A DNA stretch of 26,676 bases from a virus, in the IMG/VR virus record IMGVR_UViG_3300042924_007440, positions 1 to 26,676 of that record, one strand, 5' to 3'. Below the pieces are notes generated by a model. It did no database searches. It saw nothing but the letters and a program-made list of their open reading frames with translations, and was not told the DNA's origin. A program made the position numbers and the translations under genes. Below are positions 13,670 to 18,027 of this stretch, piece after piece; positions within the stretch are counted from its first letter, which is position 1; every line of letters begins with the position of its first letter.

Positions 13670-15070
13670 GTGATTACGGACCACGGCGAGCCCCCATCCG
13701 AGCTCTCGTTCTCGTCTGGCCGTGTCCTGGTGGGCGAATGCCTCGAGCGCCTGAAGAGGCTGCCGGACGCCAGCGCCGACGCCATCGTCACCGACCCGCC
13801 CTACGAGCTGGGGTTCATGGGCAAGAAGTGGGACGCCTCGGGCATCGCCTACAACACCGAGCTGTGGAAGCACTGCCTTCGGGTGCTGAAGCCCGGCGGC
13901 CACCTCCTGGCGTTCGGCGGGTCCCGCACCTACCACCGGATGGCGTGTGCGATCGAGGACGCCGGGTTCGAGGTGCGGGACTCGATTCACTGGGTGTACG
14001 GCAGCGGGTTCCCGAAGTCGCTCGACGTGAGCAAGGCGATCGACAAGGCGGCGGGCGCGGAGCGGGAAGTCGTCGGCACGGACGGCAGGAGCGCCAACGA
14101 ATCATGGCTCGGGACCGCCAAGCGTGGTGAAACCGGATTTGGAATCGGGGAATGGAACCTCACCGCCCCGGCGACGCCCGAGGCGGCCACCTGGGAGGGG
14201 TGGGGCACGGCGCTCAAGCCCGCACACGAACCGATCGTCGTCGCCCGCAAGCCGCTGGCCGGCACGGTCGCCGCGACGGTGCTGGCCCACGGCACCGGCG
14301 CCCTGAACATCGACGGGTGCCGGGTGGGCAACGAGGTGCGCCACAACCCGGCATGTCGCACCCCCGACGGCACGCCTTCCCTCGGTGGCGGCCCAACCGC
14401 CACCGAGGGAACCACCGCAACCGGCCGCTGGCCCGCCAACTTCTTGCTCACTCACGCCGCCGGATGCCGCCAGGTTGGCACGACCACCGACGCGTTCAGC
14501 GTCGTCAGCGGCCTCCGTGACTACCCCCAGAACAGCAACTTCGGGGCCCGCGCCCAGGTCGAGCAGACCGCCCAGGAAGTGACGGTGCCCGTGTGGTCCT
14601 GCGCCCCCGGGTGCCCCGTGGCCGAGCTCGACGCGCAGAGCGAGGGCGCCTCGCGGTTCTTCACCGTCACCGAGTGGGACCCCATCGCTGACGCGCCGCC
14701 GTTCCGCTACCAGGCCAAGCCGTCCAAGAAGGAGCGCAACTCCGGGCTGGACGGGTTGCCGCTGCGGGCGGTTCCGGTCGGCACGCCCACCAACGACGGA
14801 TCCGGACAAGTGGTTACGGCCAACGTCCACCCCACGGTCAAGCCCGTGGCCCTGATGCGGTGGCTCGTCCGCCTCGTCACGCCACCCGGCGGCACGGTGT
14901 TGGACCCGTTCCTCGGCTCGGGCACCACCGCGGTCGCCGCCGTGCTGGAGGGGTTCTCGTGGGTCGGGTGCGAGATGACCGCGGAGTACCTGCCGATCAT
15001 CCGCGGCCGCGTCGAGTGGGCTGAGGACCAGCTGGCAACGCCGGAGCAGCTGACGCTGGGCGGTCCCTGA
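13670..15070 (+). CDS. DNA methyltransferase (beta class, DPPY motif)
   Basis: From GTG 13670 the product is 466 aa beginning MITDHGEPPSELSF. It has the catalytic motif VTDPPYELGFMGKKWD (about 40-55) and the AdoMet-binding motif VLDPFLGSGTTAVAAVLEGF (about 409-428) near the C-terminus, beta-class order. DPPY favours N6-adenine methylation. The middle part (about 130-350) is the likely target-recognition insert and includes Cys residues (RVGNEVRHNPACR, WSCAPGCPVAELD). There is no adjacent restriction enzyme. It closes the replication-side rightward gene group and is followed by the short prepilin-like frame. It is distinct from the methyltransferase at 8173. Confidence 0.87.
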   Translation: MITDHGEPPSELSFSSGRVLVGECLERLKRLPDASADAIVTDPPYELGFMGKKWDASGIAYNTELWKHCLRVLKPGGHLLAFGGSRTYHRMACAIEDAGFEVRDSIHWVYGSGFPKSLDVSKAIDKAAGAEREVVGTDGRSANESWLGTAKRGETGFGIGEWNLTAPATPEAATWEGWGTALKPAHEPIVVARKPLAGTVAATVLAHGTGALNIDGCRVGNEVRHNPACRTPDGTPSLGGGPTATEGTTATGRWPANFLLTHAAGCRQVGTTTDAFSVVSGLRDYPQNSNFGARAQVEQTAQEVTVPVWSCAPGCPVAELDAQSEGASRFFTVTEWDPIADAPPFRYQAKPSKKERNSGLDGLPLRAVPVGTPTNDGSGQVVTANVHPTVKPVALMRWLVRLVTPPGGTVLDPFLGSGTTAVAAVLEGFSWVGCEMTAEYLPIIRGRVEWAEDQLATPEQLTLGGP

Positions 15071-15071
15071 C

Positions 15072-15081
15072 CGCCAACAGT
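15072..15081 (+). promoter_or_regulatory. Variant start-linked motif CGCCAACAGT, 58-aa gene
   Basis: CGCCAACAGT differs from the consensus at one base, with the usual 7-base spacer (CGGGGGT) before ATG 15089. It lies directly after the methyltransferase stop, as other copies do. Confidence 0.65.
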
Positions 15082-15088
15082 CGGGGGT

Positions 15089-15265
15089 ATGACACGGACA
15101 CGGCCCCGCGGCTTCGCCCTCCTCGAGCTGGCTATCGCCCTCATCATCGTCATCCTGCTCGCCGTGCTGACGGCCTCGACGCTCACTCCAGCTCTGATGG
15201 CGGCGCAGCAGACGGCGACCCGGGCGTCCTGCCCGCCGGCCCTGCCGTACTCGCCAGGCCCGTAG
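15089..15265 (+). CDS. 58-aa membrane peptide with a type IV prepilin-like N-terminus
   Basis: This short frame starts 7 bases after a start-linked motif variant, which argues that it is a real gene. The N-terminus is basic (MTRTRPRG), followed by FALLELAIALIIVILLAVLT. That matches the prepilin signature of a Gly, then a hydrophobic helix starting with F and carrying E at position 5, cleaved after the Gly by prepilin peptidase. The rest is a 30-residue Ala/Pro-rich tail with one Cys, far shorter than a real pilin. It could alternatively be a small holin/antiholin or another single-pass membrane peptide. It ends at TAG 15263-15265, touching the first integrase arm repeat. Confidence 0.5.
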   Translation: MTRTRPRGFALLELAIALIIVILLAVLTASTLTPALMAAQQTATRASCPPALPYSPGP

Positions 15266-15286
15266 TTCCTTACGAGTTCCATACGG
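15265..15286 (+). repeat. Integrase arm-type repeats, left pair
   Basis: Two tandem 11-bp units lie here: GTTCCTTACGA and GTTCCATACGG (9/11 identical to each other). The same pair, identical in all 22 bases, recurs at 15428-15449. Tandem, same-orientation short repeats on both sides of a core next to a tyrosine integrase fit arm-type binding sites. Confidence 0.7.
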
Positions 15287-15540
15287 GGGTCGGTTGTCGA
15301 CGCTCCGCGGTCGGCGGCGAGGCTCAGGAGAAGGCGTTTAGCCCAGTAATGGCCTGGCCGAGGATGAGCGTGTGGATCTCGTTCATCCCGCCGTATCCCC
15401 CATTTCTCCACGGATTTAGCGGACTTTGTTCCTTACGAGTTCCATACGGCCCTCAGATATCACGCTCCGTGGTCAACTGCGGCCCAAAAAATGGCCCGAG
15501 GTCGGTTGGCGTCAGCGTACCGGCGGGGACCGTCGTGGCT
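15266..15540. other. attP: Probable attP: arm repeats flanking a host-gene-like core
   Basis: The gap between the prepilin-like gene and xis has 11-bp repeat pairs on both sides of a 141-bp core. Read on the minus strand, 15324-15400 encodes GYGGMNEIHTLILG...TGLNAFS followed by a stop, closely resembling the extreme C-terminus of acyl-CoA dehydrogenases (where G-x-NEI followed by a hydrophobic run is typical). The frame has no start here and is not a phage gene. A phage that integrates into the 3' end of a host gene carries such a copy in its attP core to restore the gene. The core boundaries cannot be set without the host sequence. Confidence 0.6.
15428..15449 (+). repeat. Integrase arm-type repeats, right pair
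   Basis: This is an exact second copy of the tandem GTTCCTTACGA / GTTCCATACGG pair, in the same orientation as the left pair, 141 bp away. It lies upstream of the excisionase-like gene. Confidence 0.7.
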
Positions 15541-15792
15541 ATGGAAAGCAACACCGCCTCCATCACCGCCCAGGCCGACGAGGCCTGGTCCCAGCACCAG
15601 GTTGCTAAGTACTTGGGACTGACCGTCCGCCGAGTCCGAGACCTCGTGGGCACCGACGGGTTCCCGGCCCCCCGGGTGCTCGGTCCCCGCACCCTCCGGT
15701 GGAGCGCCAACGCCGTCCGGGCGTGGCTCGCCGAGGGCGACACCGTGGTCAAGGCGGCCCGGCCCGCCCGGGCGGTGGTACACCGGGTGTGA
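15541..15792 (+). CDS. xis: Excisionase-like helix-turn-helix protein, 83 aa
   Basis: The ATG at 15541 begins MESNTASITAQADEAW. The compact domain WSQHQVAKYLGLTVRRVRDL with following FPAPRVLGPRTLRWSANAVRAWLAE (about 16-68) is the MerR/AlpA-type winged helix used by small phage excisionases: a helix-turn-helix, a Pro-containing wing and a final Trp-containing helix. It overlaps the integrase start by 3 bases (TGATG). Such proteins bend attachment-site DNA to favour excision. The longer frame from 15349 runs through attP and is rejected. A regulatory role alone is also possible. Confidence 0.75.
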   Translation: MESNTASITAQADEAWSQHQVAKYLGLTVRRVRDLVGTDGFPAPRVLGPRTLRWSANAVRAWLAEGDTVVKAARPARAVVHRV

Positions 15793-17000
15793 TGGGAGAA
15801 CTGAGAGACCGGACCCCGGACCCCGTGCGGGTACACCGCTCGGGGTCCGGCTGGCTCGTGCGCTACTGGGCCGCGGGCACGCCCGGCCTGGGTGAGCGGC
15901 GCAGCGAGCGCCTCCCGACCAAGCGAGCCGCCGAGGACCGGGCCGCCGAGGTGCGCCGGGCGCTCGAGGGCGCCAGCGGCGTTGTGCCGCCCGCCGGCTA
16001 CACCGTGGGCGAACTGGCCCGGGACTGGGTGGAGGGCGCTGGGCCAGCGTGGCCCGCCGGCACCCGCAAGGCGTACCGCCGGGACCTCAACTGCTACATC
16101 CTCCCCGCCATCGGCACCTGGCGGACCGACGCCCTGGGCACGCGGGCACTGGCAGCCGTCGTCGACCGGATCGTTGCCGCTGGCCTCTCGGCCTCGACGC
16201 TCGACGGCGCCGTGCGCACGCTGACGGCGCTCGGGAAGTGGGGCGCCCTCCGCCAGCTCCTCCCAAGTCAGCCGTGGGGCGGGCAGGAGCACCGGCAGGC
16301 AGTGGTAGCCACCGCGCGCCGTGCGCTCCGGGACGGCGGGGCCCGTGACCTCCGCCTTGACCAGGTGCCAACGTGGGTAGATGTGCTCGCCCTCGCCGAT
16401 GCGCTCGAGGAGCAGTGGCCGGGACGGGGATCCGTGTTCGTTCGCCTTCTGGCCGTCACCGGCCTCCGGATCGGCGAGGCGCTAGGTCTGCGGGCCGACG
16501 ACATCGACGCCGAAAAGGGCACGATCCGGGTGGAGCGCCAAGCCGACCGGTTGGCACCGTGGCCAGCGATGAGTGACGTCAAGAGCCGCCGCCGCGGCCA
16601 GCCGGCACCCCGCACCGCCTGGGCATGGGCATGGGCCAAGCCGGTCCTAGCCGAGGCGGTCGGCGAGCGGACCGGTGACGCCTGGCTGTTCCCACCAGAC
16701 GTTGAGCCGTATCGAGGCGGTGGCATCTGGTGGACGAACCGCGTTACGGAGCGCCTTGCCGGCGCGCGGGAGTCCGTGGGATGGGTGTGGACGACGCATT
16801 ACCTCCGGCACCACTTCGCGTCCGTCAGCTTGGCGCCTTCACCTGTGGGTCAAGGACTCGACGTGGAGGTGGTAGCCGAGCTCCTCGGCCACGCTTCCTC
16901 GACCACGACCAGCGCCATCTATCGCCACGGCGTCGAGACGGTGGCCGATGCGATGGCCCGCACGACGAAGGGCCCGGGGCGGCGCAGAAAATCCCGCTGA
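15792..17000 (+). CDS. int: Tyrosine integrase (site-specific recombinase)
   Basis: The ATG at 15792, coupled to xis, gives 402 aa. The protein has an N-terminal arm-binding-type region (about 1-65), a core-binding domain (about 70-165: TVGELARDWVEGAGPAW, RKAYRRDLNCYILPAIG) and a catalytic domain. All key residues are visible: R226 in TGLRIGEAL, K264 in SDVKSRRRG, H336 and R339 in THYLRHHFAS, H367 in LLGHASS and the nucleophile Y377 in IYRHG. The basic tail is GRRRKSR. It would integrate and excise the phage at attP, probably the repeat-flanked region just upstream. The GTG-led extension at 15699 lies inside xis and is rejected. Confidence 0.93.
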   Translation: MGELRDRTPDPVRVHRSGSGWLVRYWAAGTPGLGERRSERLPTKRAAEDRAAEVRRALEGASGVVPPAGYTVGELARDWVEGAGPAWPAGTRKAYRRDLNCYILPAIGTWRTDALGTRALAAVVDRIVAAGLSASTLDGAVRTLTALGKWGALRQLLPSQPWGGQEHRQAVVATARRALRDGGARDLRLDQVPTWVDVLALADALEEQWPGRGSVFVRLLAVTGLRIGEALGLRADDIDAEKGTIRVERQADRLAPWPAMSDVKSRRRGQPAPRTAWAWAWAKPVLAEAVGERTGDAWLFPPDVEPYRGGGIWWTNRVTERLAGARESVGWVWTTHYLRHHFASVSLAPSPVGQGLDVEVVAELLGHASSTTTSAIYRHGVETVADAMARTTKGPGRRRKSR

Positions 17001-17042: not shown

Positions 17043-17085
17043 GGAAGTCGGGGGACTTCCGGGATGGCCACCCCTACCGGGGTGG
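17043..17085. terminator. Bidirectional terminator between int and the lysis-side gene
   Basis: Two hairpins occur in the gap between convergent genes: GAAGTC/GACTTC around GGGG, and CCACCCC/GGGGTGG around TACC (17068-17085). The second overlaps the stop of the minus-strand gene (17074-17076) and can act in both directions. Neither has a long T-tract. Confidence 0.55.
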
Positions 17086-18027
17086 TCGTTCCGCGTTCAG
17101 GGCCGCGACGGCGCCGGCGGCGAGGACCGCGGGGTCGGCGTCGAGTAGGCGGCCAGCTAGCACCCCCCTCGCGTGTGGCGTGAGACCAGCACCCGCCTGG
17201 GCCCACACGGTGAGCCGTAGATCACCACCGCGGCGCCCGAGATGCCACGCCAGCTCCTCGCGGATCCGGTAGCTCGGCGGGATGAGATCGCCGGCGTCTA
17301 GCAACATCACCACGTCCCGAGATGAGTGCCGCTGTAGTGCAAGACCACCTCCGCGCTGCCGCATCCGGCTCAGTGCCCCGCGCGCCTCTATGCGCCCCAC
17401 GCCCTCGTCCGTTACCGCCACCTGCAGCGCGTAGTAATCGCGCCCGGGCAGGAGGTCGACGCGACCGGCTGCCAGACGGAGGATCTCATCAGAGGACGGC
17501 GCCCCCTTCGCGGGGCGCGAGTAGTCCACGGAGGGATCGGTGAGCGCCGCAAGGAGGTTCCGCGTCGAGCAGAGATCAGAGCGCCGCCACGACTCGGCGC
17601 TCCTCATCGCCTTGACGTTCACCGCCATGACCGCGGGCCGTCCCGAAACCGTCCACGCCCACACCTGGTCGGCCATCCCGCCGCCGCGGTGTGCCGTGAT
17701 GGCAAGGCCCGCCGCCGCCGGTACCGCCGCCTGACCCGCGGCGAGGATCCCGTCCGTGATTCGGCCGTCGGTGTCCTCCTCGAGCACGTCCGCTAGCGCG
17801 TGCTCGAAGTGATGCCCAAAGGAGCGATCACGCGCGCCCGTCTCATCGTGGCGTGCCGCCCGCCGCGCCGCCTCCTCACACGCCGCTCGTAGCTCGGGTG
17901 CGGTGGCCGCAGCCTCCATCAGGCGCGCGTGAAGCTCGAGCCAGCGCCCGCGTGGTCCGGTGTCAAGGCTTGACGCCGCCGGTGTGGTGAAGGGGAGCGC
18001 CAGCTGGCCGGCGCCCCCGGTTCTCAC
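17074..18027 (-). CDS. Unknown protein, possible PD-(D/E)XK-like nuclease, 317 aa
   Basis: The GTG at 18027 overlaps the endolysin stop as GTGA. A possible nuclease core is seen at about residues 70-141: E75 in FGHHFEHALADVL, D120 in GGGMADQVWAW and a strand with VNVK (N137, K139), which would be a non-standard PD-(D/E)XK signature with Asn in place of the acidic residue. The C-terminal half has no motif. An operator/stoperator-like site covers codons of about 18-22. Its lysis-cassette position is unusual for a nuclease. It could act in DNA degradation, superinfection defence or restriction, or be an unrelated tail-region protein. The nuclease call is weak. Confidence 0.55.
   Translation of the reverse strand: MRTGGAGQLALPFTTPAASSLDTGPRGRWLELHARLMEAAATAPELRAACEEAARRAARHDETGARDRSFGHHFEHALADVLEEDTDGRITDGILAAGQAAVPAAAGLAITAHRGGGMADQVWAWTVSGRPAVMAVNVKAMRSAESWRRSDLCSTRNLLAALTDPSVDYSRPAKGAPSSDEILRLAAGRVDLLPGRDYYALQVAVTDEGVGRIEARGALSRMRQRGGGLALQRHSSRDVVMLLDAGDLIPPSYRIREELAWHLGRRGGDLRLTVWAQAGAGLTPHARGVLAGRLLDADPAVLAAGAVAALNAERPPR
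17962..17974 (-). promoter_or_regulatory. Operator/stoperator-like site inside the 17074-18027 gene
   Basis: The plus strand is GTCAAGGCTTGAC, a perfect palindrome except for its central base. The sense (minus) strand reads CAAGCCTTGACA, the same orientation relative to transcription as all other copies. Confidence 0.65.

Follow-up and report, generated by a model that had tools for sequence, protein, structure and literature searches.

A putative phage attachment site with a core that would restore the 3′ end of an Acidimicrobiales glutaryl-CoA dehydrogenase gene

Why does a virus carry, between two pairs of direct repeats and just upstream of its integration genes, the last codons of a bacterial metabolic gene? 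The question is raised by a 141-bp segment within the window, the 26,676-nucleotide stretch of IMG/VR record IMGVR_UViG_3300042924_007440 analyzed here. We are confident that this segment represents the attachment site (attP) of a temperate tyrosine-integrase phage, the core of which would restore the 3′ end of a host glutaryl-CoA dehydrogenase (GCDH) gene.

Arm repeats and neighboring genes

The segment is bounded on both sides by an exact 22-bp repeat, GTTCCTTACGAGTTCCATACGG, with a start-to-start spacing of 163 bp (Table 1). Each copy is a tandem pair of the 11-mers GTTCCTTACGA and GTTCCATACGG; the first-pass annotation had described two identical tandem 11-bp pairs around a 141-bp segment beside xis-int, and its coordinates are exact. 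Save for one chance 18-mer at distant places, the window has no other exact repeat of ≥ 18 bp. Moreover, only four sites in the window match GTTCCWTACGR perfectly; all four are located within the two 22-bp copies, and the number of matches with two mismatches allowed equals the chance expectation. Alignment of the arms reveals a further common 13-mer, ACGCTCCGYGGTC, 12 of whose 13 positions are identical between the two copies. By sequence, these direct repeats flanking the core are putative integrase arm-type sites. The G+C content of the att region is 59.7%, compared with 71.4% for the window. Within the core, the best inverted repeat (GGCCAG-GCCATTA-CTGGGC) is at chance level, being equalled by 46% of shuffles, and thus does not locate the crossover point.

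A tyrosine recombinase gene and an excisionase-like gene adjoin the site, the stop codon of the latter overlapping the int start. In the integrase, whose 402-aa frame is intact, the R, HxxR, H, and Y motifs are readable. On the other side, a 58-aa frame resembling a type IV prepilin N-terminus (MTRTRPRGFALLELAIALIIVILLAVLTAS..., 15089–15265, plus strand) ends with a stop codon extending into the first base of the P1 repeat. Upstream of this frame lies a DNA methyltransferase gene (PF01555; 13661–15070, plus strand) with at least 595 relatives among viral contigs, which makes it far more widespread than the remainder of the phage. Convergent with int lies the gene of a 317-aa protein (17074–18027, minus strand) matching neither Pfam nor PHROGs.

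Table 1. Features of the attachment region, with the corresponding site of the sister phage in the last line.
Feature	Position	Strand	Evidence
Putative integrase arm-type sites P1 + P2, tandem 11-mers	15265..15286	+	Exact 22-bp repeat; layout as in sister phage and Cluster J mycobacteriophages
Second arm motif ACGCTCCGCGGTC	15300..15312	+	Arm alignment; 13 bp past first 22-mer
141-bp segment between arm pairs, contains core	15287..15427		Repeat coordinates
Putative phage-supplied target-gene end: last base of Leu codon, Asn-Ala-Phe-Ser-stop	15324..15339	−	Diverged from host DNA, frame restored
Putative attP common core, 45 bp identical to 3′ end of Acidimicrobiales GCDH gene	15340..15384	−	DNA comparison with G001
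Putative arm-type sites P′1 + P′2, identical tandem pair	15428..15449	+	Exact 22-bp repeat
Second arm motif ACGCTCCGTGGTC	15462..15474	+	Arm alignment; 12 bp past second 22-mer
Excisionase-like HTH_17 protein, 83 aa	15541..15792	+	phrog_66 excisionase, E 3.9e-8; PF12728, 22.3 bits (a modest match, below the Pfam cut-off of 27)
Tyrosine integrase, 402 aa	15792..17000	+	PF00589, E 4e-16; phrog_1, E 3e-38
Putative attP of sister phage, core = tRNA-Gly(CCC) 5′ half ending in anticodon loop region	L196 12787–13051

Origin of the core

Between the arm repeats, a minus-strand frame ending at 15324 reads GPYGTRKEQSPLNPWRNGGYGGMNEIHTLILGQAITGLNAFS from stop to stop, with the terminus ...NGGYGGMNEIHTLILGQAITGLNAFS-stop and the end ...NEIHTLILGQAITGLNAFS-stop. 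In a PDB search with this peptide, all ten matches align at their C-terminus; nine of them carry the name GCDH and the tenth acyl-CoA dehydrogenase, with E-values of 0.0007–0.04 for nine of the ten. Together with the PDB matches of the host gene described below, this identifies the target, judged from sequence, as GCDH, which replaces the generic acyl-CoA dehydrogenase. The superfamily given earlier for the C-terminus was right and is narrowed accordingly. That annotation had also called the terminus in-frame and devoid of a start in the phage; the terminus stands, yet an in-frame ATG is present at 15387–15385, bordering the host-like block; the host gene reads ACG there. The ATG would open merely 20 codons, and nothing in the analysis indicates that it is used or that the 20-codon frame is a gene. 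A tRNA-targeting attP was considered and rejected: no tRNA was found in the window and no Rfam match at 15000–15800, so the core is not part of a tRNA or tmRNA gene.

The Y-x-G-T motif of GCDH enzymes (YEGT in actinobacterial ones) is YGGM in the phage, suggesting that similarity to the host starts just past this motif. A first genome scan with the query GGMNEIHTLILG gave no match, because its GGM comes from the phage and corresponds to EGT in the host. Scanning 84,980 genomes, one per species, for EIHTLILGQA returned 68 places, mostly in Acidimicrobiia. At one of them (locus L004 of genome G001, an uncultured actinobacterium MAG), 45 bases, GAACGAGATCCACACGCTCATCCTCGGCCAGGCCATTACTGGGCT, are identical to the phage, while the next-longest identical runs among the 68 places comprise 38, 36, and 33 bases and most fall below 22. 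The block takes in the rare synonymous codons ATT, ACT, and GGG, whose third bases occur in 14%, 6%, and 30% of 66 other GCDH ends, and multiplying the column frequencies across the block gives about 10^−6.3.

In a DNA search with the core against 397 genomes, which like G001 we infer to be Acidimicrobiales, the G001 GCDH gene is the best match (E 1.2e-18 in this 2.7-Mb genome), followed by the next genome at 1.7e-14. All 32 best matches examined in these genomes are GCDH 3′ ends, with no tRNA and no intergenic site among them. The first-pass annotation had predicted an attB in the 3′ end of a host acyl-CoA dehydrogenase gene and had named best matches in tRNA genes or intergenic DNA as counting against it; the 45 identical bases at the Acidimicrobiales GCDH end bear the prediction out. 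The G001 gene is full length and retrieves GCDH in a PDB search (3sf6, E 5e-161); an NCBIfam search with it gave no match above a cut-off. Taken by itself, the core thus points to a phage host in Acidimicrobiales, in a freshwater-type lineage close to G001.

These data bear on the view that the core mimics the gene by chance or encodes a phage peptide of 20 codons from the ATG at 15387. The in-frame ATG speaks for a peptide, but the frame shows no sign of being a gene, and 45 identical bases with rare synonymous codons at the above E-value refute a chance likeness. We consider this view close to negligible.

Divergence from the host is immediate at the 5′ edge of the block, where host YTYEGT faces phage NGGYGGM, and resumes at its 3′ edge, where frame and stop are nevertheless kept. 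Joining the host 5′ part, the block, and the phage 3′ part in silico yields a full 401-residue GCDH ending in NEIHTLILGQAITGLNAFS, which differs from the host protein by one substitution, Gln to Asn (LNAFS versus LQAFS). Divergence and in-silico joint together are the behavior expected of a gene-restoring attP.

Sister phage, lysogen searches, and integration model

A sister phage, IMGVR_UViG_3300006111_000003 (contig G418, 36,450 bp), has a terminase 51% identical to that of the present phage. In the same genome position, between a regulator and xis-int and just upstream of the latter, G418 likewise carries tandem pairs on both sides of a core, CTGCACAACCGCTGCACAACTTC and CTGCACAACCACTGCACAACATC (CTGCACAACC..), 242 bp apart. 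In contrast to the present phage, however, the arms differ and the core is the 5′ half of tRNA-Gly(CCC). The intervening DNA scores 22.6 bits (E 0.027) as an Rfam tRNA, below the gathering score of 29, as expected because only half a tRNA is present. Over 37–43 bp, this core shares 93–95% identity with Acidimicrobiales tRNA-Gly(CCC) genes from the same host family, which agrees weakly with a shared host family, since tRNA is conserved. Tblastn does not align the integrase of G418 with that of the present phage (best E 1.5), which fits an exchange of the whole integration module. Same slot and architecture thus appear to hold an ordinary tRNA attP in G418 and a GCDH attP in the present phage. 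At the place of the 317-aa protein, the sister encodes a 309-aa protein (L196 14838–15767, minus strand) with similar motifs (HSSR-D/E-VV).

The collections searched, among them the 397 Acidimicrobiales genomes, yielded neither a prophage encoding this integrase nor any attL or attR. In these genomes, integrase and terminase searches gave nothing reaching E 1e-20, and the best integrase relative in the host family is 28% identical; the other fetched GCDH loci contain no integrase near GCDH. Viral contigs scanned with the integrase, the core, and the arm repeats returned no relatives. The terminase search retrieved near-identical fragments of the same phage (L110 and L113, 99.97–99.99% identical), both stopping short of the att region. 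The window itself is a fragment: a 99.99% identical contig extends 1456 bp beyond base 1 (L110 13860–15315), with frames resembling a prohead protease gene and the beginning of a capsid gene. The G001 contig ends within 0.45 kb downstream of the putative attB, a stretch holding part of a frame only (L198 9350–9791), so that this MAG cannot tell an empty site from one occupied by another element.

The absence of a prophage at GCDH from the 397 genomes and the fetched GCDH loci would suit a scrap that is passenger DNA from imprecise excision or illegitimate recombination, the real attP core lying elsewhere. Against this, the scrap occupies the middle of the interval between the tandem arm pairs, which are the only ones in the window, it lies beside xis-int, it holds just the gene end with its conserved stop, and the sister has a tRNA half in the same slot; we regard passenger DNA as improbable. 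Slightly less credible still is a former GCDH attP whose site or integrase is decaying, or whose phage now uses another attB. It draws on the lack of a known lysogen and on an integrase isolated in sequence space, but the 45-bp identity is unbroken, the two arm repeats match exactly, and int retains an intact frame.

We therefore return to the gene-restoring attP, for which the repeats, the core identity, the restored frame, the adjacent int and xis genes, and the sister's like layout around a tRNA core can all be read directly from the DNA. What we infer goes beyond this: integrase binding, the precise point of crossover, and the integration event, as follows. The integrase would bind to the 45-bp core and to the tandem 11-bp arm repeats flanking it, and the core would recombine with the identical attB at the 3′ end of the GCDH gene of an Acidimicrobiales lineage close to G001. 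Strand exchange within the block would detach the final codons of the host gene; in their place the phage would supply its own (LNAFS-stop instead of LQAFS-stop), leaving the enzyme intact. The P arm, on the methyltransferase side, would then border the restored gene, and the P′ arm, on the int side, the displaced 3′ scrap. The predicted junctions are the GCDH body, block, AAACGCCTTCTCCTGA, and phage P arm on one side, and the phage GGYGGM side, block, and host CCAGGCCTTCAGTTAG on the other. Thus, this freshwater-type phage can probably insert at GCDH without breaking the gene.

Relation to known sites and significance

Gene-restoring attB sites in the 3′ ends of protein genes are known, e.g., icd for phage 21 and e14. 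These icd sites likewise combine a tyrosine integrase with a phage-supplied replacement 3′ end, but they involve another gene and another host phylum. The arrangement of the arms resembles that of the Cluster J mycobacteriophages (Omega, BAKA), in which a tyrosine integrase acts with a 44-bp common core flanked on each side by a pair of 10-bp imperfect direct-repeat arm sites (PMC3706429). There, however, tRNA-Leu forms the core and attP is situated 3′ of int, whereas here the core is a protein-gene 3′ end and attP lies upstream of xis-int. Among the tyrosine-integrase attB sites of M. abscessus, 16 of 23 are in tRNA or tmRNA genes and seven elsewhere (PMC10654092), and with many islands, insertion leaves the target gene restored (PMC12884075). 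An acyl-CoA dehydrogenase gene is also the target at attB-21 in fadE (MAB_1851) of Mycobacterium abscessus, used by prophiT49-3; that element differs in having a serine integrase and in inserting near base 280 of 1140, with probable loss of gene function (PMC9934374). We found no report of GCDH as attB in the open-access literature. The layout is thus of a known kind, and GCDH apparently is an unreported target gene.

A more far-reaching reading is that lysogeny, by swapping the GCDH end and everything downstream, alters the expression or operon context of the enzyme and acts as a metabolic switch, with the integration module exchanged between tRNA and metabolic-gene targets within one phage lineage. 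It would concern GCDH as an enzyme of amino-acid and aromatic breakdown, and we consider it unlikely, if somewhat less so than the competing explanations of the scrap given above.

For an otherwise unassigned viral contig, the putative attP provides a testable host, a freshwater-type Acidimicrobiales lineage, and narrows the insertion point to 45 bases. An attB of this kind, located in a conserved metabolic gene, could be exploited by integration vectors in a bacterial class with few genetic tools. Further, with the sister carrying a tRNA core in the same slot, nature would provide a case in which tRNA targeting and protein-gene targeting can be compared cleanly within one lineage.
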